Shown one piece after another: positions 4,490-46,340 of a stretch of DNA of 57,102 bases. The position numbers and the translations under genes were made by a program. Origin of the DNA: a virus; the IMG/VR virus record IMGVR_UViG_3300031774_000016, positions 1 to 57,102 of that record; one strand, written 5' to 3'. Within the stretch, counting starts at the first letter, position 1, and each line of letters begins with the position of its first letter. The notes beneath the pieces were generated by a model, which made no database searches, was not told the origin of the DNA, and worked only from the letters and a program-made list of their open reading frames with translations.

Positions 4490-7303
4490 ATGAATATACG
4501 TAATCTAACAATATCATTATTGATGACAACAGGATTGTTTGCACAAACTATCGTTGGGGTTGTTAATGGTGGTAGTGAACCATTGGTTGGAGCAAATGTT
4601 GCTGTTGTAGGAACTGATAAAGGTGGTGTAACAGATGAATCTGGTAAATACACTATCGATGTCGGAGCTGAAGGCACATACACATTAACTGCTTCATTCA
4701 TTGGATATTCACCTTTAACATTGGATGTTAAGGTGGGTGATATAGTTGGAACACTCAACTTCGATTTAGAAGAAGATGTTTTAGCTATGACAGCACTTGA
4801 GGTCTTGGCTTCAAGAGCTGATGAAAAGACACCTGTCGCATACACTAATGTGGTAAAAGAAGAATTGGAATTTCGTCTTGGTAGTCAAGATGTTCCAATG
4901 GCTTTGAATACTACACCAAGTGTTTATGCAACTCAACAAGGTGGTGGTGCGGGTGATGCTCGTATCAATGTTCGTGGGTTCAACCAACGAAATGTAGCCG
5001 TAATGATAAATGGTGTTCCCCAAAATGATATGGAGAACGGATGGGTTTATTGGTCTAATTGGGATGGAGTTGCAGATGCAGCACAATCAATTCAGATGCA
5101 AAGAGGTCTATCAGCTGTTAATCTAGCTACACCTTCAATCGGTGGAACTATGAACATTATTACTGATCCTGCTCAACACGAGAAGGGCGGTAAGTTCAAA
5201 CAAGAAACAGGCGCAGGTGGTTTTCTAAAAACTACTCTTAATTACAATAGTGGTTTGATTGGAGAAAAACTCGCGTTAAGTGGTACAATAGTACGAAAAA
5301 CAGGTGATGGACTCATCGACAAAACATGGACAGACGCTTGGGCATATTATTTTGGTGCGAGTTATCAAGCTAATAAAGATAACCGATTTGAATTATACGC
5401 TATCGGAGCTCCACAACGCCATGGTCAAAATCTATACAAACAGAATATCGGTGCTTATGACGCTGAATTTGCTGCGAGTATAGATGGATATGATGAAACA
5501 GCACTTGGAGAAGATGGTTCGTTCAAAGATGTTGGTCGATTCTTTAATCAGAATTGGTCACCTATTAGTTCAGACTATAAAGGAAAGCAATATTGGTATA
5601 TGTATGGTGATAAAACATCGGACAGATACAATCCTAACTTCCTAAATGAAAGAGAAAACTTCTTTCATAAACCATTGGTTAATCTTAACCATTTCCTAAA
5701 TATAAATGAAAAACTTCGTCTTTCATCTGTAGCTTATTGGAGTGGTGGATCTGGTGGTGGTACTGGTACTTATGGTAGGATTCCAACTCTCGACGCCGAT
5801 GGTGTTTTAGGGGGAGAAGATTATAAGTTTTATTATGGTCGTTCTCCTTGGACAAGAGATTGGAATACATTGGTTGCATACAACTCAGGTGACGCAGACA
5901 CAGTTTATGTTGATAAGAGAGTTCTACCAAGAACTCATGGTGATGGTAATAATCAATCAGTAGGTATTCTTCGTAACTCTATTAATCGTCAAAATACTCT
6001 CGGTTTAATCTCCAAATTAAACTACGAAGTTAATGATGATTTAGAGGTTCAAGTTGGTATTGATTGGAGAACTGCTAAAATCGAACACGCTCGTGAAGTT
6101 CGTGATTTGATGGGTGGTGATTACTATATGGATTACGCAGATGATAACTACGCAGATGGTAAAAGAGTTGGTTTAGGTGATATCATTGCATACCACAATC
6201 ATACTACGGTTGATTGGTTAGGTGGATTTGTTCAAGGTAATTATACTTTGGATAATTTAAACCTTTATGGTATGGGTGGTGTATCTAACATCAAGTATAC
6301 TTATCAAGATCATTTTACGGTTGAGAACGAGTTAATTGAAGCACCATCAATCACAACAATTCAAGCAAAAGGTGGAGCAGTTTACGATATAGATGATAAT
6401 GTTAGTGTATTTGCTAACGCTGGATATGTCGAAAAACCACCTATTATGGATAATGTGATTTACTTTGATGGTACGGTTGCACCAGATCCTGCTAATGAGA
6501 AATTCATTAGTTCAGAAGCTGGTGTTAATTTCAAATCTGATAAATTTGCTGTTAAGGCAAATGTATACAATACAGATTGGAAAGACCGAAACCTTACTAA
6601 ATCCGTAACCACAGGACAAGGTGATTCAGGTGATACTGATGTTATCTTCCTTAGTGGTATCCATCAAAAACATCAAGGACTTGAGATAGAAGCTTCTTCA
6701 CAAGTTCATTCAATGTTTAGGATAGACGCGGCACTTAGTTTTGGTAAATGGCAGTTCAATGGAGATGCTAGTGGTAATTATCAAGAAAACGAATATGATG
6801 AACAAGGTAATGTAAGTGGTTTGAAAACAACCAAATACAATTACGCACTTGATGGATTATTCGTAGGTGATATGCCTCAAACTTCATATGTCTTGGGTGG
6901 AACTCTAACTCCTGTTAAAGGACTTAGTATTCAAGCACTCTACAATATCTATGATGATAATTATAGTGATTGGAGTCCTGATTCTCGTGAGTATGATGTT
7001 GACGCAACAGACGATGATGGTAATTCAGTAGATGACGCAGATAGAGAACAAGTATGGATGGCACCTGGATATCAAAAAGTTGATATTCACGCTTCATATA
7101 AACTACCAACCGATTGGACTGGTGGATATGATGTGTCGTTGTCAGCACATTTGTTTAACGCTTTAGATGCTGTATTTGTACAAGATGCAGTAGATCACAG
7201 CCAATACAATAGTTATGGTGACAAAGTTCACGCAGCACACAACGCTGAAGTATTTCTTGGAACACCAAGATACTTTAACTTAGGATTGTCTGTTAATTTC
7301 TAA
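4490..7303 (+). CDS. TonB-dependent outer-membrane receptor
   Basis: The start is set at 4490 (not the in-frame ATG at 4385) because GAGGAGAA lies just upstream and the product then begins with a clear signal peptide ending LFAQ; 937 residues. Order: signal peptide (1-19), carboxypeptidase-regulatory-like beta domain (about 20-100: PLVGANVAVVGTDKGGVTDE), a plug domain (about 120-250, with INVRGFNQRNVAVMINGVPQ), then a 22-strand-type barrel ending in LGLSVNF with the terminal Phe used for BAM insertion. Such receptors import siderophores, vitamins or glycans using TonB energy. The gene is intact and lies alone between a 158-base gap and a strong terminator. Finding one in a phage is unusual. 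The substrate cannot be told from the sequence; no SusD partner follows. Confidence 0.93.
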   Translation: MNIRNLTISLLMTTGLFAQTIVGVVNGGSEPLVGANVAVVGTDKGGVTDESGKYTIDVGAEGTYTLTASFIGYSPLTLDVKVGDIVGTLNFDLEEDVLAMTALEVLASRADEKTPVAYTNVVKEELEFRLGSQDVPMALNTTPSVYATQQGGGAGDARINVRGFNQRNVAVMINGVPQNDMENGWVYWSNWDGVADAAQSIQMQRGLSAVNLATPSIGGTMNIITDPAQHEKGGKFKQETGAGGFLKTTLNYNSGLIGEKLALSGTIVRKTGDGLIDKTWTDAWAYYFGASYQANKDNRFELYAIGAPQRHGQNLYKQNIGAYDAEFAASIDGYDETALGEDGSFKDVGRFFNQNWSPISSDYKGKQYWYMYGDKTSDRYNPNFLNERENFFHKPLVNLNHFLNINEKLRLSSVAYWSGGSGGGTGTYGRIPTLDADGVLGGEDYKFYYGRSPWTRDWNTLVAYNSGDADTVYVDKRVLPRTHGDGNNQSVGILRNSINRQNTLGLISKLNYEVNDDLEVQVGIDWRTAKIEHAREVRDLMGGDYYMDYADDNYADGKRVGLGDIIAYHNHTTVDWLGGFVQGNYTLDNLNLYGMGGVSNIKYTYQDHFTVENELIEAPSITTIQAKGGAVYDIDDNVSVFANAGYVEKPPIMDNVIYFDGTVAPDPANEKFISSEAGVNFKSDKFAVKANVYNTDWKDRNLTKSVTTGQGDSGDTDVIFLSGIHQKHQGLEIEASSQVHSMFRIDAALSFGKWQFNGDASGNYQENEYDEQGNVSGLKTTKYNYALDGLFVGDMPQTSYVLGGTLTPVKGLSIQALYNIYDDNYSDWSPDSREYDVDATDDDGNSVDDADREQVWMAPGYQKVDIHASYKLPTDWTGGYDVSLSAHLFNALDAVFVQDAVDHSQYNSYGDKVHAAHNAEVFLGTPRYFNLGLSVNF

Positions 7304-9500: not shown

Positions 9501-9828
9501 TGAAACTCTATATGGGAAACAATATTTACTTGGAACTGATGTTTACGAAGATGGGAAACATAAGATATTAAATGTTCCGTTGATTGATTTAATGGATAGG
9601 AATGGTTTTATACCCGAAGGTAAGTATAATGAGATTTACAATTTATCAGTTGTGTGGTATGAGGTTAATGAAGAAATTTTTGTTGAGAGTATTTATGATA
9701 CCGATAGTGGTGAAACTTATTGGACAGATAAACCAGCTAATGAGTGGACAGATAATGATGACGAACTTTTAACAGCACTTTTAATGTATGGTAATTTACA
9801 AGAAACAATAGGAGAGAATTATGTTTAG
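9490..9828 (+). CDS. Hypothetical acidic 112-aa protein
   Basis: Overlaps the preceding gene by 11 bases, with GCGGAG upstream of the ATG. Acidic, aromatic-rich and soluble. The last eight bases overlap the lipoprotein gene. No known family. Confidence 0.7.
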   Translation: MNYNETLYGKQYLLGTDVYEDGKHKILNVPLIDLMDRNGFIPEGKYNEIYNLSVVWYEVNEEIFVESIYDTDSGETYWTDKPANEWTDNDDELLTALLMYGNLQETIGENYV

Positions 9829-10378
9829 GTTTATTCCAATATTATTTTTATTTTTAATTGGTTGTGAAGATACATTGTATTTAGAACCAGTCGATGAATC
9901 TACAATTCAAGTTGAAGAGCCAAGGGTTGATGTTTATTATTTTGATAAACAACCTAATCTTAGTTTAGATGATAATGGATTTTACCATTTAGATATTGAT
10001 ACGACCAACTGGCAAACCTTACATAGACTCACGGGTTTTATTTCAGATTCAGCAACATCAGGACCTGTTGTAAATTGTAGGGTGGAGTGGGAATCATCTC
10101 ATTATTGGACTCTCGGAGATACATTAGGTTTTTGGATTAGACAAGGTTTAACCGATGATTTAGAATGGGTTAGTTATGATACATCTTATGTTATTGGTTT
10201 TGATGGACAAGAAGTACCTACAATTAATCCAGCAAGTTATAGCAACTCTGATGGAGAAGTTAATACAATGATAGCACCCGTACAATCTATGATTGGAGAT
10301 ACTATGACTATTTGGTATTCGTGGAGTGGTTGGTACGCTGGTGTGAATAATGATTCAATAAAAATTGTATTAGATTGA
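9821..10378 (+). CDS. Predicted lipoprotein, 185 aa
   Basis: N-terminus MFRFIPILFLFLIGC is a short signal peptide with a lipobox ending at Cys15, followed by acidic residues, so the mature protein should be lipid-anchored in the periplasm or on the outer membrane. The rest is beta-rich with several Trp and may be an immunoglobulin-like fold (GEVNTMIAPVQS). Phage lipoproteins at the host envelope often block superinfection, but no specific family is recognised. Confidence 0.75.
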   Translation: MFRFIPILFLFLIGCEDTLYLEPVDESTIQVEEPRVDVYYFDKQPNLSLDDNGFYHLDIDTTNWQTLHRLTGFISDSATSGPVVNCRVEWESSHYWTLGDTLGFWIRQGLTDDLEWVSYDTSYVIGFDGQEVPTINPASYSNSDGEVNTMIAPVQSMIGDTMTIWYSWSGWYAGVNNDSIKIVLD

Positions 10379-10421: not shown

Positions 10422-10685
10422 ATGACAAATAAAGAATTACAAGATTTAATAATAAAAACATTTGATGGGATTATCATTGATGAGTATGACCGAGAGATTC
10501 ATAAGATTGATGGTAAATCATATGATATCACATTTGACAGAAGTAGAGTTGAATGGAGTTGTAGTTGTCCAGCATTTAAGTTTCGTAGACGACATAAGAT
10601 TTCTAAGTGTAAACATATAATTGAAATACAGAATAGAAAATTTAAGACATTGGTTGAAGGCCGAGCTGGTGTCCGAGTGGTCTAA
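10422..10685 (+). CDS. SWIM-type zinc-finger protein
   Basis: 87 residues. The centre carries CSCPAF followed 13 residues later by CKH, matching the SWIM zinc-binding pattern CxCx(n)CxH. SWIM fingers bind DNA or proteins and are found in transposases, SWI2/SNF2 proteins and phage proteins. No ribosome binding site is present and promoter P4 implies a leaderless mRNA. The final eight codons and stop lie inside the tRNA-Cys gene, so tRNA 5' processing would remove the stop codon. Confidence 0.8.
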   Translation: MTNKELQDLIIKTFDGIIIDEYDREIHKIDGKSYDITFDRSRVEWSCSCPAFKFRRRHKISKCKHIIEIQNRKFKTLVEGRAGVRVV

Positions 10686-10736
10686 GGAGATGGATTGCAA
10701 ACCCATTATTCGTGAGTTCGAATCTCACCCAGCTCT
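10663..10736 (+). tRNA. tRNA-Cys (GCA)
   Basis: Acceptor GAGCTGG (10663-10669) pairs with CCAGCTC (10729-10735) and T is the discriminator. The T arm GTGAG-TTCGAAT-CTCAC is perfect. The anticodon loop TTGCAAA gives anticodon GCA. The anticodon stem ATGGA/CCCAT has an A-C mismatch next to the loop, so four pairs remain. CCA is not encoded. The first 23 bases overlap the SWIM gene on the same strand. Confidence 0.85.
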
Positions 10737-10758
10737 CAAAAATAATTGAAAAAAAGAC

Positions 10759-17327: not shown

Positions 17328-17489
17328 ATGGACATAACTAAGATTATTCAGACATTGAGTGAGGCATTAGATGATAAAGATTGGGATTTGGTAAAAGAAT
17401 TGTTAGAAGAATTAATTTATGAAGATGATAATCCTATCCAAGAATACGAGAAGGATAAGGATGTGGATAATGAAAATTTATGGGGCTGA
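17328..17489 (+). CDS. Hypothetical acidic 53-aa protein ending inside the tmRNA gene
   Basis: ATG at 17328 with TGGAGAT upstream. A helical, very acidic peptide. Its last two codons and TGA fall in the first eight bases of the tmRNA gene, so 5' processing of the tmRNA precursor would leave this reading frame without a stop codon. No known family. Confidence 0.65.
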   Translation: MDITKIIQTLSEALDDKDWDLVKELLEELIYEDDNPIQEYEKDKDVDNENLWG

Positions 17490-17896
17490 CTTGGAAATCG
17501 ACTGGTGTTATTCGATACTAAAGTGCAGCAGAGTTTGAGTAGACTCTTAAATAAGACTCAACGAAACCTAAATGGCGATACATCGCTAGACGGGTTGGAC
17601 ATTGATTGGCATTTAGCTAATCTTGAAATGGGATTCGACAATTTTGTTGAACCTGTTCAAAATGACCAACCATCTTACGCCTACGCGGCATAAGTTACTG
17701 AGTTGTCTAACACTCGGTCATAAAATAAGTTAGACATCAACTCCTCATGTTATGAGTATAAAAGAACATACGGAGCTATCCAAAAAAATAGTCGGTGGTT
17801 TGTAGGTAACTTCTCGGAGGGTAGTAACCTAACTAAGCTGTAAATGACTTTGTAAAGAAGGCAAACAGGACGGGAGTTCGAATCTCCCCAGCTCCA
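17482..17896 (+). ncRNA. ssrA: tmRNA (transfer-messenger RNA)
   Basis: 415 bases. Acceptor GGGGCTG (17482-17488) pairs with CAGCTCC (17889-17895), with the G3-U70-type wobble that marks it for alanylation, and A is the discriminator. The 5' GGGGCTGACTTGG and the GGGAGTTCGAATCTCCC T arm are classical. Pseudoknot 1: AGAGT 17530-17534 with ACTCT 17543-17547, and TTGAGT 17535-17540 with ACTCAA 17556-17561. A second pseudoknot uses 17697-17703 with 17712-17718 and 17705-17711 with 17729-17735. The tag frame ends SYAYAA then TAA (17691-17693), a normal protease-signal ending. It rescues ribosomes stalled on broken messages. CCA is not encoded in full. Confidence 0.95.
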
Positions 17897-17916
17897 CAAA
17901 ATTAGCAAGAAAGTAC

Positions 17917-21003: not shown

Positions 21004-21260
21004 TAATAGAAATAGTATTAGGATTAGTAATTCTTGTTGAATCATATGTAATATGGAATTTAATGAGAAAAACAGAACTACTTGAAACTTGGGTAGAGAA
21101 CTTTACCGATAGGGTAAATAAAGTCCAACAAGAGTTAAGTGAAATAGACTCAACTGGTCATTTTGAATCAGATGACGAAGTGGGTTCTATATTCACATCA
21201 ATAAAAGAAGTAATAAACGATTTAAACAATAATACCGAACAGGAGTTAATTAGTGAGTAA
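21000..21260 (+). CDS. 86-aa single-span membrane protein with coiled coil
   Basis: N-terminal transmembrane helix (IEIVLGLVILVESYVIW) then an acidic coiled coil. ATGA overlap with the HD gene and an eight-base overlap with gp55. Function unknown; position suggests a membrane adaptor. Confidence 0.65.
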   Translation: MIIEIVLGLVILVESYVIWNLMRKTELLETWVENFTDRVNKVQQELSEIDSTGHFESDDEVGSIFTSIKEVINDLNNNTEQELISE

Positions 21261-21987
21261 AGCAACTAAACCAGTAAAGAAGAAGAAAAAACCTAAAAAT
21301 TATTATTTTAATCAGACAACTGAAAATGCTATCATTCGTTACAACAAAACAGATAGTGCTAGGTTAAAGAATAAAATATATACTGAACATATTGCATATG
21401 CTTTTGATAAGTTAGCTGAGAATATTATTCATACATTTAAGTTTTATTATTTTGATGTTCCATCAGAACAAGTAAAACACGAAGTAGTTTCGTTTCTTGT
21501 TATGAATATGCACAAGTTTAAAGAAGGTAAAGGTAAGGCCTTTTCTTATTTTAGTATTGTAGCAAAGAATTATTTAATACTACATAATAATAAAAACTAT
21601 AAGAATTATAAGATTCACGATAAGATGGATGTTCTTGATTATAGTAGAAATATTCGTGAATCTCAAGATATGAAAGATGTTGCAGATTTTAATGAAGAAT
21701 ATGTAAATCAAATGCTAGAGTATTGGGAAGAAAATCTAACTAATATATTTAGACGACAAAAAGATATATTAGTTGCAGATTCTGTATTAGAAATGTTTAG
21801 ACGAAGGGATAATATAGAAAACTTTAATAAGAAAGCTTTATATATTCTTATTCGTGAGATGACTGGTTCTAAAACTCAACACATCACTCGTATAGTTAAT
21901 ATTATGAAAAAATATAATAATCAACTAACAAGAGAGTTTCAACAGACTGGTCAATTAGATACTGCTAACACAGGATCATTTTTGTAA
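21253..21987 (+). CDS. T4 gp55-like late sigma factor
   Basis: 244 residues from a GTG start. After a Lys-rich start, residues 75-125 have the sigma region 2-like pattern of gp55 relatives: EVVSFLVMNMHKFKEGKGKAF followed by SYFSIVAKNYLI and a basic Lys/Asn stretch. In T4, gp55 joins host RNA polymerase and, with gp33 and the sliding clamp, reads late promoters that have only a -10 element. This supports the proposal that the AT-rich elements before structural genes are late promoters. Downstream is a strong terminator. Confidence 0.8.
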   Translation: MSKATKPVKKKKKPKNYYFNQTTENAIIRYNKTDSARLKNKIYTEHIAYAFDKLAENIIHTFKFYYFDVPSEQVKHEVVSFLVMNMHKFKEGKGKAFSYFSIVAKNYLILHNNKNYKNYKIHDKMDVLDYSRNIRESQDMKDVADFNEEYVNQMLEYWEENLTNIFRRQKDILVADSVLEMFRRRDNIENFNKKALYILIREMTGSKTQHITRIVNIMKKYNNQLTREFQQTGQLDTANTGSFL

Positions 21988-22060
21988 CAATTTGTTATGT
22001 AGTGTTACACATTTGTGTTACGAAATGATACACTCTTAAAAAACTTCTAAAAAATAAAAG

Positions 22061-22088
22061 ACCTCATTTTTTGAATGGGGTTTTTTTG
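22061..22088 (+). terminator. Terminator after the gp55-like gene
   Basis: ACCTCATT (22061-22068) pairs with AATGGGGT (22074-22081), with one G-T pair, followed by seven T's. It separates the gp55 operon from the prepilin cassette. Confidence 0.85.
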
Positions 22089-22188
22089 TGCCCTTGTAAC
22101 TTCATACATATAGACACTTAAAATTATTTTTATTTTTTTTCTCAAAATAGGGTAGTTTGGTATAGTTCTTGTAGTATATAGGTAGAGA

Positions 22189-22234: not shown

Positions 22235-22903
22235 ATGTTCGAAACTATAAAAAAACTCGTAAAATCTTTTATGAGAAAACTCAAGAGTACTAATGGTAAT
22301 TCACTAGCTGAATTCGCTGTTACTACTGCAATGATGGCAACACTTGCTACAACAGCCGCACCAAAATTTGGACAAGTTGGAGCAGGAGCTAAAGAAAAGA
22401 AAACAATGAATAACATTGACAAAATTCTTACAGTTGCTAATAACTTTTACAACCAAACATTGTCTGAAGAAGGTAAAGGAAGATTTCCTGGACAAGAGAA
22501 GTATGATGTCGCTGTAGGTGGTGTCACTTTAGCTGAAGGAGCTTCTACTGATGAAACTCTTGAAGCTTATGTGGAAACAATACTTGACCAAAAAGTATCT
22601 TATACATCAGAGTTAGGTGAGTTCGTTTATGTATTTTCACCAGCATCAGATGATGATGACGCATTACAAGGTGATTGGATGAGTTTAGAATCATCAGTTG
22701 GTTACGATGGTAACGATGAAATTGGTGCTCTTGACTTCAAACAAGACTTTGGTAACAATGGTATGACAAGTCCATTTCAGGATGGTTCATACGCATATTT
22801 AGTAATACCAGGAAGTGGTAGTGGTACATCCGCACAAGCTCCTGTTCTTGTAGTAATAGATACTGAGAATCCATCTAAACTACATAAAACTTTAGTACCT
22901 TAA
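22235..22903 (+). CDS. Type IV prepilin-like protein 1
   Basis: 222 residues. A basic leader of 21 residues ends in Gly and is followed by NSLAEFAVTTAMMATLATTA; counting from the cleavage site, Glu is at +5 and Pro at +22, the two landmark positions of type IV pilins. The mature domain (about 195 residues) is acidic and beta-rich with a Pro/Gly/Ser-rich end. AAGGAG lies upstream. Prepilin peptidase (PilD) of the host would be needed, as none is encoded here. Probably assembled into, or interfering with, a host pilus or type II secretion pseudopilus. Confidence 0.78.
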   Translation: MFETIKKLVKSFMRKLKSTNGNSLAEFAVTTAMMATLATTAAPKFGQVGAGAKEKKTMNNIDKILTVANNFYNQTLSEEGKGRFPGQEKYDVAVGGVTLAEGASTDETLEAYVETILDQKVSYTSELGEFVYVFSPASDDDDALQGDWMSLESSVGYDGNDEIGALDFKQDFGNNGMTSPFQDGSYAYLVIPGSGSGTSAQAPVLVVIDTENPSKLHKTLVP

Positions 22904-22935
22904 TCGAAAATAAAAAAACACCGAAAGGAAAAACA

Positions 22936-23376
22936 ATGAAGAACATATTAAAAAATACATCGAAAGGTTTCACATTGATTGAACTTGTAATGGTTACAAT
23001 CATATTAGGAATCTTAGCAGCTGTAGCAATTCCAAGATATCAACAAACGGTTGATAACGCAGAAGCAACAGCAGAAAAGGCATTTGTAGATATGGTATGG
23101 GCAGGAGTAGAACAAGAAGCTTCTGAAAGACTAACAGATGATGGACTTGAAGCATGGCCTTACAATCCACTAACAGTTATTGGTAGAAGCCGTAACATAT
23201 CAGTTACTCTATTTGAAGGAGTACCTGATGAGGATAATGAATGGCAGTTTAGTGTAGATGCAGCTGGTGAACCAGCAATCTTTCATCATAGAAGAAATGA
23301 CGAAATCTACTACTACAAATACGATTCATTGACATTTGAGTTAGACGAAGAACCTACACTTTACACAAACGAATAA
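22936..23376 (+). CDS. Type IV prepilin/pseudopilin-like protein 2
   Basis: 146 residues. The leader MKNILKNTSKG is followed by FTLIELVMVTIILGILAAVA, a textbook class III signal with Phe+1, Glu+5 and Pro+22. The globular part is about 100 residues, short and acidic, as in minor pilins or pseudopilins. It has its own AAAGGAA site and lies 32 bases after prepilin 1. No assembly ATPase, peptidase or secretin is encoded in the window, so it must use host machinery. Confidence 0.92.
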   Translation: MKNILKNTSKGFTLIELVMVTIILGILAAVAIPRYQQTVDNAEATAEKAFVDMVWAGVEQEASERLTDDGLEAWPYNPLTVIGRSRNISVTLFEGVPDEDNEWQFSVDAAGEPAIFHHRRNDEIYYYKYDSLTFELDEEPTLYTNE

Positions 23377-23381
23377 TTAAT

Positions 23382-23405
23382 GGGGGATTTGAAAATCATT
23401 TCCCC
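23382..23405 (+). terminator. Weak hairpin after prepilin 2
   Basis: GGGGGA (23382-23387) can pair with TCCCC (23401-23405) over a 13-base loop, followed by TATTTATTA, which is also a candidate late element (23406-23414). It may be an attenuator rather than a full terminator. Confidence 0.4.
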
Positions 23406-23426
23406 TATTTATTATAAAGAGGTATT

Positions 23427-23870
23427 ATGAGATTTAAACTCACAAATGATATTTTAGAAATTATCTTATTTGGATCAATAATGGTTACTTTAGGGTTCGT
23501 ATTTCTTAACGATGACGAACCCATTAAAGTGCAAAGTGAACCATCAGTTGAAAATTTTGATGACTATCCATTACAAGCATGGCAAACCTTAGATAGAAAA
23601 GGTGGAGAATGTGTAAAGGTTCGTTATCGTGTAGAGAAAAATAAAACTCGTTTATATATGATAAATGCCGATGGAAAGAAAGTTCACACACAACCAATAT
23701 CTTTAAGTCCACACAGAGATGGTAGGGATAGGATAGAAACATATGTTTGGAAACTCTATCGAACCGAGTGGACGGATAAGATAGCACCAGGTGAATACTT
23801 AATCATAGTGGGAACAGAGCATGATAAATCAGCATCAAGAAATCTTACTCTTGAAATCGACATAATGTAA
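23427..23870 (+). CDS. Membrane-anchored 147-aa protein of the prepilin cassette
   Basis: One transmembrane helix (ILEIILFGSIMVTLGFVFL, about 9-27) and a periplasmic beta-rich domain of about 110 residues with YRVEKNKTRLYMIN and APGEYLIIVG strands, reminiscent of a cohesin- or fibronectin-like sandwich. The stop overlaps the next ATG. The place in the cassette suggests an envelope role beside the pilins; no family is named. Confidence 0.7.
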   Translation: MRFKLTNDILEIILFGSIMVTLGFVFLNDDEPIKVQSEPSVENFDDYPLQAWQTLDRKGGECVKVRYRVEKNKTRLYMINADGKKVHTQPISLSPHRDGRDRIETYVWKLYRTEWTDKIAPGEYLIIVGTEHDKSASRNLTLEIDIM

Positions 23871-23989
23871 TGTGGATGCCATTTGTTATAATAACATTAG
23901 GTGTTTGTTTGATTTGGGAATTAGATGAAAGACAAACAATAAAAAAATATAAGAAGAAAAAAAGAATTGAACAACAGAGAGAAAAATGA
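23870..23989 (+). CDS. 39-aa membrane micropeptide
   Basis: TAATG start. A hydrophobic helix (MPFVIITLGVCLIW) followed by a very basic tail (KKYKKKKRIEQQ) that should stay in the cytoplasm. Overlaps the next gene's ATG by four bases. Confidence 0.55.
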   Translation: MWMPFVIITLGVCLIWELDERQTIKKYKKKKRIEQQREK

Positions 23990-24618
23990 AATACTTATCA
24001 ATTGTATTATCAATAAGTGTTATATATTCACAAGTAGACGAACAAGTCTTTGCAGACCAAGGCATCGAAAGAACATCTGAATTTAAACGAGGTAAAGCCT
24101 ACGGACAAGATTGTGATGATACAGAATACAGAGATTACAAAGGGTATCCTGCTTGGAAAGGTTATGGTGGATGGATATCTGAATGTGATTCAATTCGTAC
24201 CGTAAATTTAGACAGAGAGTTTGCTGAAAAAGATAAAATCAGACAAAGAGAAAAGGCTATACAAGATAGTATTGATATGAAAGAAGCATTAGTAGAGATA
24301 GATAATTTAGATTTAGATGCTATGTGGGAAAATACGGTTTGGGTTGAGATAACAGATATAGAAGATACTATATATGGAGAAGTAGAACAGATTACAGCTG
24401 TTGCTGGTGTTCGTGGAGCGGAAGCAGAGGACGAGGCATTGAATCATTTATATTATAGAAGAAGTATGAAAGGTCTTGCTCTAATAGACCTACAAAAGGC
24501 CTATGGTAAATTAAAAATAAAAAGAGATAACTTAATTAAAACAAATCCTAAACATCCAAAGTTAGAAAAATTTGACAACCTCTTGTCACAATTACAAATT
24601 AAAATAAATAAATCATAA
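23986..24618 (+). CDS. Secreted 210-aa coiled-coil protein
   Basis: Signal peptide MKYLSIVLSISVIYSQ with cleavage before or after Gln, typical of FCB-group exports. The mature part has two Cys (DCDD and SECD) that may form a disulfide, a Tyr/Gly-rich segment, then long charged helices. Probably periplasmic. No named family. Confidence 0.7.
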   Translation: MKYLSIVLSISVIYSQVDEQVFADQGIERTSEFKRGKAYGQDCDDTEYRDYKGYPAWKGYGGWISECDSIRTVNLDREFAEKDKIRQREKAIQDSIDMKEALVEIDNLDLDAMWENTVWVEITDIEDTIYGEVEQITAVAGVRGAEAEDEALNHLYYRRSMKGLALIDLQKAYGKLKIKRDNLIKTNPKHPKLEKFDNLLSQLQIKINKS

Positions 24619-24724: not shown

Positions 24725-25051
24725 ATGAAGCGACTAATGTGTATGTTCTTAATGGGCTTGATTTCCGCTCAAACATTAAAAACAGCACTACCACAACCAA
24801 AAGAACCTTTCGTTCTTACTTACTACGACATTAGAGAAGATATACTTTTAAAGACGCCACACGGTAAAATAACAGTAGATTTTTTTATAAATGAGAGAGG
24901 AGAAGTAGAGGATCCAGTTATCAAGGATACTTTCAATATCAACCTTAATGAAGTAGTGTTGGATAAATTAAAAGAAACATCTTATTATCCAGCAACTCAG
25001 AATGGACGACCAGTTCGAATCAAATATACATTACCAATAGTATTTAAATAA
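24725..25051 (+). CDS. Stand-alone periplasmic TonB C-terminal domain
   Basis: 108 residues. Signal peptide MKRLMCMFLMGLISAQ, then a domain with the TonB C-terminal order: TVDFFINERGEVEDPVIKDT, a helix VVLDKLKETSYYPA, and NGRPVRIKYTLPIVF at the end. In TonB this domain grips the TonB box of outer-membrane receptors. Here there is no N-terminal membrane anchor for ExbBD and no Pro-rich spacer, so if the signal peptide is cleaved it would be a free periplasmic receptor-binding domain that cannot transmit energy. The phage also encodes a TonB-dependent receptor. Confidence 0.75.
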   Translation: MKRLMCMFLMGLISAQTLKTALPQPKEPFVLTYYDIREDILLKTPHGKITVDFFINERGEVEDPVIKDTFNINLNEVVLDKLKETSYYPATQNGRPVRIKYTLPIVFK

Positions 25052-25395: not shown

Positions 25396-25426
25396 AAAAA
25401 AAAGGGGAACAATAGTTCCCCTTTTT
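25396..25426. terminator. Bidirectional terminator
   Basis: GGGGAAC (25404-25410) and GTTCCCC (25415-25421) form a strong stem flanked by A's on the left and T's on the right, so it can end transcripts from both directions. It lies between the plus-strand cassette and the convergent minus-strand gene. Confidence 0.9.
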
Positions 25427-25442
25427 CATTATCCGATAATAG

Positions 25443-25664
25443 CTATTTACGAAATAAACCCACCAACACCAATAATGCGACTAATCCAGCGAAACCGGAT
25501 TCGCCGAAGTTATTTATGATTGATGTCAGGTTACCAATAACATTTACGCCAAAGATTCCACTCCCAAACAATACTTCGCTTACAGCTCCGATTGCTATGA
25601 AAGAGGCGAGTAGTTGAGCGATATCATCTACCCAACCTTTGACTAATGTGATGACTTCCTTCAT
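25443..25664 (-). CDS. 73-aa two-span membrane protein, possible holin
   Basis: One of only two genes on the minus strand. GGGAGAT is placed before the ATG on that strand. Two hydrophobic helices (about 17-36 and 55-70) separated by a Gly/Asn-rich loop and ending in a basic tip (LFRK). Small size, two helices and a separate, opposite-strand control region at the border of the late genes would fit a lysis-timing protein, but this is topology only. Confidence 0.65.
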   Translation of the reverse strand: MKEVITLVKGWVDDIAQLLASFIAIGAVSEVLFGSGIFGVNVIGNLTSIINNFGESGFAGLVALLVLVGLFRK

Positions 25665-25866: not shown

Positions 25867-26259
25867 ATGGCACAAGATTATGAATTATTTGAGGGTAAGT
25901 CACTATCATCATTGTTCAAAGATATTTACGATAATTCCAAACACAATAAAACACAACTTGAAATATTAGTAAAAGAAGTTGCTGGATATATTAAAGATGG
26001 GGATATGGCTATTCAGTTAATTCCTATGATAAAAGAGTATTTGGAAATCAATGTAAAGAACGATGAACAACTTGTCAAACTGGCAACGGTTGTACAGAGG
26101 TTAATTGCCGCTGAAGGTAAGGGTAGTAGTGAATCCGAATTTGGTTTATCAGAGAAAGAAAAGGCTCAATTACTCACAAGTATAGATGATGTAGTGGTTG
26201 ATATGCAAAAAAAATCAGATAGTCTTACACAAGATATAAAGTCAGTTAAGGATAATTAA
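25867..26259 (+). CDS. Hypothetical 130-aa helical protein of the structural operon
   Basis: Acidic, all-helical, first gene of the late block, with AAGGAAAT upstream and a TAATG overlap with the gp5-like gene. It may be a baseplate hub assembly factor given its place, but no family is recognised. Confidence 0.65.
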   Translation: MAQDYELFEGKSLSSLFKDIYDNSKHNKTQLEILVKEVAGYIKDGDMAIQLIPMIKEYLEINVKNDEQLVKLATVVQRLIAAEGKGSSESEFGLSEKEKAQLLTSIDDVVVDMQKKSDSLTQDIKSVKDN

Positions 26260-29349: not shown

Positions 29350-31359
29350 ATGGCAAATAGAGTCCAAAAGGATGTAAGATATTTAAACAAAGACTTTGGT
29401 GCCTTTAGAGAAAGTTTAATAGAGTTTGCAAAAACTTATTATCCAAATACATATAATGACTTTAATGAGGCATCACCTGGTATGATGTTCATAGAAATGG
29501 CATCTTATGTAGGAGATGTCCTTTCTTACTATGTTGATAGTCAGTTTAAAGAGATGTTATTAGCATATGCCGAAGATAGAAAAACTATCTATGAAATGGC
29601 ACAAGTATATGGATATAAACCTAAAGTAACACGACCAGCATTTACAACAGCTGATGTTTTTCAGACTGTACCAGCACGAGGAACTGGTACTAATGTTAAA
29701 CCAGATATGAATTACGCATTAACTATCAATGAAGGTACACAAGTTAGTGCAAATAATGGTACTACCTTTAGAACATTAGAAGATGTAAATTTTAAATTTT
29801 CAAGTTCTTTTGACCCGTTACAAATAGATGTATTTGAAGTCAACCCAACTAATAAAGTTCCGTCATTATATTTGTTAAAAAAATCAGTTAAGTTAGGAAG
29901 TGGAACTATACAATCTGAAACTTTTGATTTTAGTTCTGCAGAATCATATCCAAGAATAAAATTAGCAAAACAAAATGTAATCGAAATACTTTCTGTTACA
30001 GATAGTGATAGTAATAAATGGTATGAAGTTCCATACTTAGCACAAGATACATTATTTACAGATGTAGAAAATACAGCAGCAACTGATCCAGATTTAGTTC
30101 AATACAACGACACCGTTCCGTATCTTTTAAAATTAAAAAAGACACCAAGAAGATTTGTTACTTACATTGTACAAGATGGTTCAACTGAATTAAGATTTGG
30201 TTCAGGTATATCCGATAGTCCAGATGAGGAAATAGTTCCAAACCCAAGTACGGTTGGTTCGAGTTTACCTGGTAGTCCAAATAAACTTGATACATTTTTT
30301 GATCCTGCAAACTTTCTTAAAACTGAAGCTTATGGTCAGGCACCAGCAAATACTACACTTACTATAAAATATGCATATGGTGGTGGTATAGAAGATAATG
30401 TAGCCGTAAATAGTATATCAAATATTTCCGAAGTTTCATTTACAGTAGAAGAAGATAATCTTGTAGCAAGTACATTACTAACTACCAAGAATTCAGTAGC
30501 AATTGCAAATCCATATCCAGCTACTGGTGGTAAATCGGCAGAATCTACCGAGGAGATTAAACAAAACGCATTAGCTTATTTTCAAGCACAAGGTAGAGTT
30601 GTGACTAAAGAAGATTATATAACACGAACATATGCTATGGGTAACAAATATGGTGCAGTTGCAAAGGCATACATTGTACAAGACGAACAATTAAATATAC
30701 CAAATATGCAATTAGAAACTTCTCCAGGATCTGGATTGTTTGTAGACGAGAGAAATATAGACCAACTTAGGTCTAAAGATTTAGTTTCTTCTAAAACAAA
30801 ATTAGATAATCCTATGGCATTAAATTTATATACACTCGGATATAATGAGAATAAACATTTGACTCAATTAAACACCGCAGTAAAACAGAATTTAAAAACA
30901 TATTTATCTCAGTATAGATTGGTGACAGATGCAATCAATATTAAAAATGCTTGGATTATAAATATTGGAGTTAAATTTAGTTTTATAGCTAGACGAGGAT
31001 TTAATAAAAATGAAATTACTTTAAGGGCAATAGAATCAATTAAAGAATTTTTCCGAATAGATAAGTGGCAAATAAATCAACCTATTGTGGTTGCAGAATT
31101 AGCACAAATTATTTCACAAGTGGAAGGAATAGGAGCCATTGTTCCACCAGCAGAAAACAATCCTAATAAATTACCACTATTAATTACTAATAAATTTCAA
31201 GAATCGGATGGTTATTCGGGTAACATATATGATATAAATTATGCCACAAAAGATGGTATTATTTATCCGTCATTAGATCCAAGTATTTTTGAATTAAAAT
31301 ATCCAAATACAGATATCGAAGGTAGGTCGGTTGGTGATTCTGTTGGTGTGGCGTATTAA
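29350..31359 (+). CDS. Baseplate wedge protein, gp6-like
   Basis: 669 residues, similar to T4 gp6. N-terminus VRYLNKDFGAFRESLIEFAKTY and EASPGMMFIEMASYVGDVLSYYVD, and later GRVVTKEDYITRTYAMG, are typical of the gp6/J-type wedge protein. It forms the ring of the baseplate that ties the wedges together. AGTGGAG precedes the ATG, 16 bases after the gp25-like gene. Confidence 0.9.
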   Translation: MANRVQKDVRYLNKDFGAFRESLIEFAKTYYPNTYNDFNEASPGMMFIEMASYVGDVLSYYVDSQFKEMLLAYAEDRKTIYEMAQVYGYKPKVTRPAFTTADVFQTVPARGTGTNVKPDMNYALTINEGTQVSANNGTTFRTLEDVNFKFSSSFDPLQIDVFEVNPTNKVPSLYLLKKSVKLGSGTIQSETFDFSSAESYPRIKLAKQNVIEILSVTDSDSNKWYEVPYLAQDTLFTDVENTAATDPDLVQYNDTVPYLLKLKKTPRRFVTYIVQDGSTELRFGSGISDSPDEEIVPNPSTVGSSLPGSPNKLDTFFDPANFLKTEAYGQAPANTTLTIKYAYGGGIEDNVAVNSISNISEVSFTVEEDNLVASTLLTTKNSVAIANPYPATGGKSAESTEEIKQNALAYFQAQGRVVTKEDYITRTYAMGNKYGAVAKAYIVQDEQLNIPNMQLETSPGSGLFVDERNIDQLRSKDLVSSKTKLDNPMALNLYTLGYNENKHLTQLNTAVKQNLKTYLSQYRLVTDAINIKNAWIINIGVKFSFIARRGFNKNEITLRAIESIKEFFRIDKWQINQPIVVAELAQIISQVEGIGAIVPPAENNPNKLPLLITNKFQESDGYSGNIYDINYATKDGIIYPSLDPSIFELKYPNTDIEGRSVGDSVGVAY

Positions 31360-44011: not shown

Positions 44012-44614
44012 ATGTTAAAAAAAGTATTGACTTTACTGAGTATTATATTTATATTCAGTTGTGATGATAGAATAGAAGAAATAGGACCTCAAATAATCAA
44101 TATGTGGATTGATGGTGAAGTTGTGAATGTGGAAGAAAGATACAAACAAATAACCACTTATGGTTCAAGAGATACTTATATAGATTCAATTGGTTCAGAC
44201 GGAACTTGGATTGTAGAACAAAAAACGAAAAAGATTTTCGTAATACATTTTCAAGTAGAAGATGGTAGAGTTCTTGCATTAAATGAACATTATGCACTTA
44301 TTTTTGTTGATTGGGATGCAGCAAACTACACCACAAGTTTAATTAACGAAGGATTTTATAGTAACCCACATACAGATGATAAAGAAGTATTGTTACAAAT
44401 TGTAGGACCTTATGATTACACAATAGGTGCACAAGCATCTATTACTGAGTTGAAAATGATTTCATCAGGACAATATGCAACTGGTAGATGTGAAGGAAGT
44501 TTTTATAATCCATTTACTGATTCTGTAATGGAAGGTGTATTGGAATTTGAAAATGTAAGAATAAGTACAGATGAAGCTAATACTACTTATTTTGATATCA
44601 CTCGTGATAATTAA
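44012..44614 (+). CDS. Predicted lipoprotein, 200 aa
   Basis: MLKKVLTLLSIIFIFSC is a lipoprotein signal with the lipidated Cys at position 17, followed by Asp residues. The rest is a beta-rich soluble domain. 12 bases after the Cys-rich peptide gene. It should face the periplasm or outside. No family. Confidence 0.75.
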   Translation: MLKKVLTLLSIIFIFSCDDRIEEIGPQIINMWIDGEVVNVEERYKQITTYGSRDTYIDSIGSDGTWIVEQKTKKIFVIHFQVEDGRVLALNEHYALIFVDWDAANYTTSLINEGFYSNPHTDDKEVLLQIVGPYDYTIGAQASITELKMISSGQYATGRCEGSFYNPFTDSVMEGVLEFENVRISTDEANTTYFDITRDN

Positions 44615-44643
44615 GAAAGTAGTATAAAACACGGAGAAAAGTA

Positions 44644-45237
44644 ATGGCAGATCAAGCCAGAACAAAACAAGGACAGAGATTGGGAGAATTGTTATTGGAT
44701 GCGGATATCGTAACCAAACGACAACTTGCCAAAGCTGCTCAAGCACAAGTAAAGGGTGATAAAAGAAAAATAGGTGAAATACTTGTAGAATTAGGATTTT
44801 GTACAATAGAAGATTTAACAGACGCGATGTTAGATACACATCACGAAGAAGTAAAGGAAGAAGTAGTGAATAAACCAACAGAAATTAGTGAAGAAAAAGT
44901 ATTAGGTACTAAATTCACTTTATCAGTTCAAACAATGGTAGCTGCAGGAACAGGATTAGCCTCATTGATTGGTATGTGGTATGCCTTGCAAGCTGAAATA
45001 CAAGAAGCTAAAGAATTACCGAGTTTAGAAAGTTTATATTCTGCGGAATACCCATCAAGACCAGAGGGATATAATTGGCCAAGATCTTACGAACAATATA
45101 AAGACCAAGTAGGTTCACTTCAAGAAGATATGGATGATGTGTATGATAAATTGGATGAATATGAAGAAACGATTGAAGAACTTGAGAAACTCGTAGCAGA
45201 TTTACGAGTCGAAGTTGCAAAGAAAAGGAATAAATAG
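44644..45237 (+). CDS. GspE-N/MshEN-like domain protein with membrane helix and coiled coil
   Basis: 197 residues. Residues 12-65 carry two tandem motifs, RLGELLLDADIVTKRQLAKA and KIGEILVELGFCTIEDL, the arrangement of the GspE N-terminal (MshEN) domain, which binds cyclic di-GMP in several pilus and secretion ATPases. One Gly of the first motif is Asp, and the spacer is six rather than five residues. Then a hydrophobic helix (about 97-117) and a C-terminal coiled coil. The ATPase part of GspE is absent. Could be a second-messenger sensor or a decoy of the pilus/secretion motor. Confidence 0.65.
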   Translation: MADQARTKQGQRLGELLLDADIVTKRQLAKAAQAQVKGDKRKIGEILVELGFCTIEDLTDAMLDTHHEEVKEEVVNKPTEISEEKVLGTKFTLSVQTMVAAGTGLASLIGMWYALQAEIQEAKELPSLESLYSAEYPSRPEGYNWPRSYEQYKDQVGSLQEDMDDVYDKLDEYEETIEELEKLVADLRVEVAKKRNK

Positions 45238-45239
45238 TT

Positions 45240-45680
45240 ATGAATAATGGAAAATTAATTAAAATTACTTTTAAAACATTATGTGTCATGGGATTAGCAT
45301 TTATACTATGTGGTAATGTTGTAAATGGTCAAGATAAAAAACCAAAGGTAGAAGTTATCAATGATGATAATTTTAAGAAATCAATATCAAAGGGATTTTT
45401 TCTTATAAAATTTACATCTGGTTATCAAATGACTACACTTGATAAGAAATTATTTGATGGAGTTAGTGGATTTGAAGGTTGTAAAATAATCGAAGTTGAT
45501 GCGGGAAATGCAAAAAAAGTAATTAAAAAACTTAGAATACGAAACTATCCATCTTTAGCATTATTTCACAACGGAAAAAAGAAAGAAGTTTGGAAGGCCG
45601 ATATGGATGGTGTTGTAGATATTAATAATAAAGATATCAAAAAGGCTATTTCAAATGCGATAGCAGGTGATGTGTTTTAA
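45240..45680 (+). CDS. Exported thioredoxin-fold protein lacking the active-site cysteines
   Basis: Signal-like N-terminus (LCVMGLAFILCGNVVNGQ). The thioredoxin fold is visible in FLIKFTSGYQMTTLDKKLF, IIEVDAGNAKKVIKKLRIRN and YPSLALFHNGKK with the cis-Pro before Ser. The CxxC site is replaced by SGYQMT, so it cannot do thiol exchange. It may act as a protein-binding module in the periplasm. Starts two bases after the previous stop. Confidence 0.75.
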   Translation: MNNGKLIKITFKTLCVMGLAFILCGNVVNGQDKKPKVEVINDDNFKKSISKGFFLIKFTSGYQMTTLDKKLFDGVSGFEGCKIIEVDAGNAKKVIKKLRIRNYPSLALFHNGKKKEVWKADMDGVVDINNKDIKKAISNAIAGDVF

Positions 45681-45683
45681 TGT

Positions 45684-46340
45684 ATGAACATCGCAACGAT
45701 AGCTGGACATTTAGCATTTGGGTTAATAGCATTTTCGTTTCTTGTAAAGGATATACTATATCTTAGACTACTTTCAATTTTAGCAAGTCTATTCTCAGTA
45801 TTTTATAATTTTTATATACCAGACCAACCCATGTGGTTGGCAATCAATTGGAACATTGTCTTTGTTCTTGTAAACCTTTATCACATCGCTGTTATCATAT
45901 ATGAAAAACGACCTGTCCACATGGACGATAAGAATAATGAGTTATACGAAACCCTATTTAAAGATTTAACACAAGTAGAGTATTTAAAAATTAGTAAGGC
46001 TGCTATTTGGAAAACATTTCAACCTAATGAATTTATTACAAGACAAACACATCTTGTTCCAGATTTAGTATTGATATACAATGGAACAATAGATGTATTA
46101 GTAAATGGTAAAAAGGTGGCACAATTAAAAGATGGACAATTTGTTGGTGAGATGTCATTCCTTACAGAGAAATCAGCAACTGCAACTTGTATTGTAAAAC
46201 ATCCGTGTGAATGTTTAGTTTGGAAACAAAGGGAGTTTAAAGAATTGTTAAAAAGAAACCCATCATTATATTTCACACTTCAAACTCTGTTGAGTGCACA
46301 AGTTTCAGATAATCTTGTAAGTAGTTCAAAATCTGAATAG
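45684..46340 (+). CDS. Popeye-like membrane protein with cyclic-nucleotide-binding domain
   Basis: 218 residues. Three transmembrane helices in residues 5-75, then a cyclic-nucleotide-binding beta roll (about 110-200): a long strand region, then GQFVGEMSFLTEKSATATCIV, which matches the phosphate-binding cassette (FGE followed by ALL and R-S/A-A). The usual Arg of the cassette is Lys here. The whole layout equals the Popeye family. It should sense or bind cAMP/cGMP-type molecules at the inner membrane. Confidence 0.82.
   Translation: MNIATIAGHLAFGLIAFSFLVKDILYLRLLSILASLFSVFYNFYIPDQPMWLAINWNIVFVLVNLYHIAVIIYEKRPVHMDDKNNELYETLFKDLTQVEYLKISKAAIWKTFQPNEFITRQTHLVPDLVLIYNGTIDVLVNGKKVAQLKDGQFVGEMSFLTEKSATATCIVKHPCECLVWKQREFKELLKRNPSLYFTLQTLLSAQVSDNLVSSSKSE

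Follow-up and report, generated by a model that had tools for sequence, protein, structure and literature searches.

Pili are classic phage receptors, and pilins encoded by phages are already known. Pseudomonas phage MD8 is reported to carry a pilin, gp11, with relatives in phages JBD68 and PAN70 and also in host chromosomes (PMC8508860). MD8 differs from the phages described here in being temperate and in having one described pilin gene, which lies beside transposases (PMC8508860). D3112, DMS3 and Pf4 act on the host pilus, achieving superinfection exclusion by inactivating the host pilus machine, and are reported to supply no pilin subunit (PMC11436027). Annotated pilin genes are also present in the cyanophages S-CAM7 and ACG-2014f; they share a pilin-like N-terminus with P2, the smaller of the two pilins studied here, and match it weakly (E 0.03-0.1) over 23-29% of its length.

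The lineage to which we compare this locus is SAR406, an abundant uncultured ocean lineage that we take to be the Marinimicrobia. When pilin levels drop in Pseudomonas, PilR and the pilin promoter become active, and in this PilS-PilR-RpoN control of pilA an NtrC-type activator and sigma-54 drive the pilin gene (PMC6058289). By comparison, the SAR406-type control is a prediction from sequence, and the phage copy would use host factors. Judging by titles and abstract openings in searches of an open-access library, we found neither a multi-pilin phage cassette under host sigma-54 control nor anything on SAR406 phage pilins; within that scope the host-wired multi-pilin cassette appears to be the new part.

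The pilin pair in the window

The window, that is the whole 57,102-nt stretch of IMG/VR record IMGVR_UViG_3300031774_000016 that was analyzed, carries two adjacent pilin genes exactly where the original prediction had placed a pair of prepilin-like genes, and the ORF list agrees:

22235-22903, + strand: P1, a large (222 aa) pilin-like protein; class III signal G/NSLAE (slash, cut), Pro at +22
22936-23376, + strand: P2, a type IV pilin (146 aa) belonging to the phage-only clade 'P2last'; class III signal G/FTLIE
23379-23409, + strand: hairpin after P2, RNA fold -15.4 kcal/mol, z -2.78; a possible terminator, with few T behind it and absent from the simple terminator scan

Both proteins have the complete class III signal that had been read from the sequence. 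The P1 leader is 21 aa long with 6 K/R and is cut after Gly21, with Asn at +1, Glu at +5 and Pro at +22, and the P2 leader is 11 aa long with 3 K/R and is cut after Gly11, with Phe at +1, Glu at +5 and Pro at +22. All of 39 P1 and all of 35 P2 sequences have Gly -1, Glu +5 and Pro +22, and dN/dS is low (0.09-0.16 in 8 comparisons for P1, 0.05-0.18 in 6 comparisons for P2), indicating that these signals go beyond chance.

By Pfam and NCBIfam, P2 is a type IV pilin, because it matches N_methyl (E 3.3e-7, 30 bits, cut-off 21.2) and TIGR02532 (28.4 bits, cut-off 16.3). Its matches to GspG, GspH and GspI are below cut-off, and it is not an equivalog of GspG, the type II secretion major pseudopilin (37.8 bits versus a curated cut-off of 88.85). 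P1 is atypical for a pilin, with Asn at +1 and without any Pfam match; N_methyl was found in 0 of 39 aligned P1 relatives, which rules out recognition through that model. Its probable place in the pilin family comes from matches of the P1 alignment profile to the solved chains of geopilin (E 3.5e-4) and MshA (E 0.0022), and from the alignment of the P1 and P2 profiles by hhalign (probability 91, E 9e-7). The AlphaFold model of P2 (mean pLDDT 84) consists of a 56-residue helix (residues 14-69) followed by a small sheet of four strands and is weakly pilin-like: compared with solved structures (VIA), PAK pilin came top (Z 5.3, 105 residues, 3.4 Å) and FimA next (Z 4.2), with the best unrelated row close behind (Z 3.9). 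Foldseek returned nothing significant, the best pilin-type protein among the 50 matches listed being the pseudopilin complex 5bw0 at rank 35. The P1 model (mean pLDDT 52) was too poor for a structure search, and fold evidence for P1 was dropped.

The gene preceding the pair (21253-21987) had been described as a gp55-like sigma factor, an identity that we abandoned since neither profiles nor solved structures gave a sigma-factor match; it has relatives without named function in 6 phage records. The predicted link to a baseplate operon downstream is weaker too: five ORFs (73-210 aa) separate the pilins from position 25867, at which the genes towards the baseplate start, and 29350-31359 encodes a relative of a baseplate wedge protein (one baseplate gene checked). 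Among these ORFs, a small hydrophobic one of 73 aa on the opposite strand (25443-25664, - strand; present in 36 of 94 P1 loci) sits behind a two-way terminator-like hairpin (25404-25421). Elsewhere in the window, a full-length tmRNA gene was found by Rfam (17482-17899, + strand, 81.6 bits), which is unusual for a phage and for which ARAGORN reported none, as well as a tRNA-Cys (GCA) gene (10663-10737, + strand). PADLOC gave no match for six proteins from the pilin region.

The location of the pilins a few genes ahead of the baseplate region in the window context is what could be expected if they acted in the particle, or in the envelope at lysis, and not in a host filament. We consider such a role very improbable, because the position of the cassette shifts among at least four contexts, its control region is of host type (both described below), and proteins with class III signals are targeted to the inner membrane.

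A recurrent cassette and its bacterial relatives

Relatives of the pair are accompanied by further genes, which in the window are the following:

23427-23870, + strand: a147, N-terminal membrane anchor (by eye) and globular domain
23986-24618, + strand: b210, exported protein with a signal peptide by eye, cassette companion
24725-25051, + strand: TonB C-terminal-domain protein, Pfam TonB_C E 2.6e-9, signal peptide by eye

The cassette unit consists of P1, one or three P2-like pilins, usually b210 and often a147; many relatives have P1 and then three P2-like pilins instead of one. Across the 94 P1-holding loci of 104 examined (counts that include overlapping loci and contig ends), b210 accompanies P1 in 81 and a147 in 68, and the TonB_C-only protein is a less constant neighbor (35 of 94). 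dN/dS is 0.13-0.28 for b210 (4 comparisons) and 0.17-0.20 for a147 (2 comparisons). Scanning IMG/VR gave 63 loci with the P2 query and 46 with the P1 query; counted by contig name these are 84 contigs (63 + 21), the loci of the two scans overlapping. A scan with the P1 alignment gave 186 relatives, of which the best 80 were used. In 50,697 phage records, neither a P1 nor a b210 relative was found.

The upstream neighbor of the cassette is the 21253-21987 gene in 38 loci and homologs of window genes 44012-46340 in others (e.g., L006, L031, L037, L060 and L086). In L016, L041 and L088 a homolog of window gene 9821-10378 lies a few genes away, in L010 and L011 the cassette is beside a pair encoding 538 and 135 aa, and L029 and L033 have other neighbors again. 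The cassette is thus found in at least four genome contexts, and this variation shows that it occupies different phage genomes and positions. Ten ORFs from the other insertion contexts gave a single match in PHROGs, to an SbcC-like protein. The features of a moron or accessory cassette, an own control region and a variable genome position, are present.

That these genes were phage genes and not stray host sequence had been argued from their position alone, and the pair now recurs in many related contigs. Full-length relatives do exist in bacterial genomes, as would be the case if the locus were a product of chimeric assembly or host DNA sorted wrongly into a viral record. However, many contigs carry this cassette between phage-contig genes that they have in common, and most phage copies fall into their own clades. 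With 84 contigs, at least four contexts and purifying selection, we find a chimeric or stray origin hardly credible and rejected it. One short contig (L106) has the same P1 gene at each end, in opposite orientations, probably an amplification artefact.

When bacterial genomes were scanned with the P1 alignment, 26 loci were recovered. The record title is Marinimicrobia or Neomarinimicrobiota for 14 of them and no more than 'bacterium' for 8, and the remaining 4 are labelled Alphaproteobacteria, Balneolaceae, Euryarchaeota and Crocinitomicaceae. The Alphaproteobacteria-labelled one (L107) is phage-like sequence that ends at the contig end. In L122, which is titled 'bacterium' and by eye is close to Marinimicrobia locus L114, Pfam identified in this order a receiver, PilD (1492-2310), PilB/GspE (T2SSE and MshEN), an NtrC-type activator (Sigma54_activat and Fis) and PilC/GspF (T2SSF); P1 and further pilins come after an Mrr-like gene. 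An unusually long array of eight P2-like pilins in a row is present in this bacterial genome (MED-G177, L122 9647-13541). In Neomarinimicrobiota locus L108, the activator (5126-6580) was confirmed by Pfam and the other genes were placed by order and length. Several host loci contain more than one P1 paralog, followed by P2first, P2midB and pilins that we call GspH/I/J-like from their position and N-terminus.

These Marinimicrobia-type operons (L108, L114, L122 and L109) resemble the phage cassettes in several respects. The order P1, P2first, P2midB (L108, L109) is shared with many four-pilin phage cassettes, a sigma-54-type promoter and TGTWACA-type half-sites precede P1 as in the phages, and the host gene cluster holds a b210 relative. 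The C-terminal half of b210 matches a protein from the host pilus/secretin gene cluster and has relatives in 10 of the 12 bacterial genomes searched, 7 of which are titled Marinimicrobia or Neomarinimicrobiota; in 7 of these 10 genomes the relative shares a contig with PilB or a secretin (one of the seven being a contig-end fragment), and in G001 and G002 the relative and the secretin belong to one run of genes, with the secretin upstream. The phages differ by adding the P2last clade and a147, and by the apparent absence of PilD, motor, full activator and, on inspection, GspH/I/J-like pilins. A likeness to the MSHA-type pilus and the type II pseudopilus is also seen, in the MshEN domain of the L122 ATPase and the sub-cut-off Gsp matches of P2, with the difference that the phage carries subunits only. 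Because the P1 relatives lie in a Marinimicrobia-type operon with PilD, PilB, activator and PilC, the host of this marine virus is most likely an uncultured ocean bacterium of SAR406 type, an assignment resting on pilin ancestry.

The assembly machinery shows the same division between phage and host. PilD was found in 0 of 17 virus records versus 11 of 12 bacterial genomes, the motor T2SSE over cut-off in 0 of 17 versus 11 of 12, and RpoN in 0 of 17 versus 9 of 12, none of the virus records being known to be complete; for RpoN, 3 bacterial genomes gave no match and a fourth, counted within the 9, gave a weak and partial one. A secretin is present in 10 of the 12 bacterial genomes and was not found in the window, where the absence of prepilin peptidase, motor and secretin matches agrees with the original prediction. 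In 10 of the 12 bacterial genomes the activator lies within 5 kb of PilB. This distribution suggests that the phage pilins depend on the host.

Sub-cut-off T2SSE matches were present in 8 of the 17 virus records, 7 of them in the same ORFs as matches to Sigma54_activat, which exceeded its cut-off only just (23.5-28 bits) in 11 of the 17 records and fell below it in one more. We dropped a phage-encoded activator because the four ORFs inspected look by eye like MoxR/CobS-type AAA proteins without GAFTGA; the host activators in L108 and L122 carry GSFTGA. The AAA ATPase of about 400 aa in L227-L230 is MoxR/CobS-like by eye, with weak matches to the sigma-54 activator family in several phages. No integrase match was found in the 17 virus records (none known to be complete), and a temperate reading was dropped.

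Phage P1 proteins do not form a single group. In a careful tree of 58 proteins (three long host rows dropped, 23 of 39 phage rows kept), the phage rows fall into three groups: a main clade of 16 rows that includes the window (support 100/100) and lies on a long branch (0.99), five phages beside Neomarinimicrobiota L108 (99/96), and L029 together with L033 (100/99). Forcing all phage P1 into one clade costs 28 log units and was rejected (p-AU 0.0126), a quick tree having been viewed before this test. That quick tree had 77 rows and excluded L107, host rows below 80 bits or 190 aa and three rows without the motif. The rejection of a single clade suggests at least two captures of P1 by phages; alternatively, transfer from phage to host could have split the phage clade.

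In a quick P2 tree based on few columns (P2last rows of phages thinned and L105 left out, 133 rows reduced to 101), the window P2 falls in a phage-only clade, and the other cassette pilins group with or beside host pilins. The recurrence of this P2last clade across cassettes would fit phage pilins that obstruct or cap the filament from within the assembly platform, as would the finding of a147 relatives in 0 of 12 bacterial genomes (in a search without positive control) and the fact that other phages disable pili by other means (PMC11436027). Jamming of this kind appears improbable to us, since P1 retains its class III signature in full, purifying selection acts on its exposed domain, and up to four pilins are not obviously needed by a blocker.

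The control region upstream of P1

Three elements were located upstream of P1 in the window:

21983-22032, + strand: three TGTWACA-type half-sites (21983 TGTAACA, 22003 TGTTACA, 22026 TGATACA), at which the host sigma-54 activator may bind
22056-22086, + strand: hairpin, its 3' arm rich in T, RNA fold -12.8 kcal/mol, z -3.48; it probably terminates the preceding gene and is absent from the simple terminator scan
22157-22173, + strand: sigma-54-type -24/-12 element TTGGTATAGTTCTTGTA, which relatives conserve at this place

Aligning the upstream regions of P1 revealed a conserved TTGGTAC-N5-TTGTA element, the spacing of which we take to be that of sigma-54 promoters (consensus GG-N10-G[CT]). The window element has GT at -12 where the consensus has GC, and relatives L018 and L088 carry TTGGCATACTTTTTGCA. 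The pattern TTGGNAN6TTGYA occurs 3 times in the window versus 0.49 expected. A simple sigma-70 and terminator scan gave nothing above shuffles.

We then compared P1 upstream regions with other phage DNA, using backgrounds (random and elsewhere) that came from overlapping loci. A -24/-12 element scoring at least 9/12 precedes P1 in 59 of 70 distinct phage upstreams versus 2.8% of random phage stretches, the other 11 being under this threshold, and at least 2 half-sites are present in 59 of 70 versus 1.0%; promoter and half-sites occur together in 0 of 5000 random phage stretches. With the stricter threshold of at least 10/12 the element is less distinctive, as 29 distinct sites precede P1 and 24 lie at other places in approximately 719 kb of phage DNA. 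Among 13 held-out upstreams, 11 have the promoter (at least 9/12) and all 13 have at least 2 half-sites. The half-sites (TGTAACA, TGTTACA, TGTATCA and TGATACA) were chosen from k-mers of host upstreams, with TGTTACA visible in the phage list too, and their density upstream of P1 is 8.8 per kb in phages (57 regions) versus 0.55 elsewhere and 6.7 per kb in hosts (44 regions) versus 0.56 elsewhere. In the bacterial loci the element (at least 9/12) precedes 40 of 49 P1-like rows and none of the listed P2-type rows. The pattern points to a putative sigma-54 function of the phage element.

Control of this type is also relevant to the idea that the phage pilins stand in for host pilins whose synthesis has ceased, which would keep secretion, attachment or nutrient uptake by the host filament going until lysis. 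A host-like control region would supply pilin as the host pool falls, like PilS-PilR in Pseudomonas (PMC6058289), and the retention of ordered pilin sets and of an exported cluster protein, together with purifying selection on the cassette, would suit such filament upkeep. But the window P2 belongs to a phage-only clade and the main P1 clade is long-branched, unlike simple replacement copies, and the GspH/I/J-like pilins of the host operons were not noticed in the cassettes when these were inspected without profiles for those pilins. As an explanation of the cassette we regard upkeep as rather unlikely.

Possible consequences of phage-supplied pilins

The reading that we prefer, and which we judge to be probably correct if only by a little, is that of a moron-like cassette from SAR406-type hosts, the host-driven pilins of which enter and alter the host filament. 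During infection, host RpoN and the activator borne on the host operon would switch the phage cassette on, host PilD would cut the leaders of the phage pilins, and the host PilB/PilC machine would insert the phage subunits into the host filament. A filament built with phage subunits would show a changed surface, since the N-terminal assembly region is host-like, the exposed domain differs and the window P2 is in a phage-only clade. Identity of the window P1 to the 16 nearest among 38 host rows is 67-78% over the first 55 mature residues (40-78% for all 38), compared with 36-49% (33-49%) over the remainder. This would suit subunits still able to assemble yet presenting a different face, but such a gradient is usual among pilins. 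If SAR406-type hosts have a PilR-like feedback, it may be speculated that the phage copy is made as host pilin runs short.

The benefit to the phage would most likely be the altering of a filament used by other phages or by progeny, that is, superinfection exclusion, with filament upkeep close behind. The split phage clades of P1, the several insertion contexts and dN/dS values well below 1 suggest that the cassette is valuable to phages. We put forward the fuller account only tentatively, as possible without being probable: phages without a detectable integrase would have captured host pilins along with the RpoN/activator region more than once, and the host circuit would make phage subunits, one of them phage-only, from which the filament is rebuilt to the benefit of the phage. 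Beyond the original prediction, which was limited to the two genes and their possible effects on a host pilus, the present analysis adds a source and likely host, a sigma-54-type and half-site control, a larger cassette, its mobility and its repeated capture, at the strengths given above.

If this explanation is true, supplying subunits through a host alternative-sigma circuit would be a tactic unlike the pilus-disabling counter-measures that have been reviewed (PMC11436027), and more than one capture suggests that the tactic pays. It would link at least 84 IMG/VR contigs as a group to SAR406, with a promoter and a pilin set that are directly testable.
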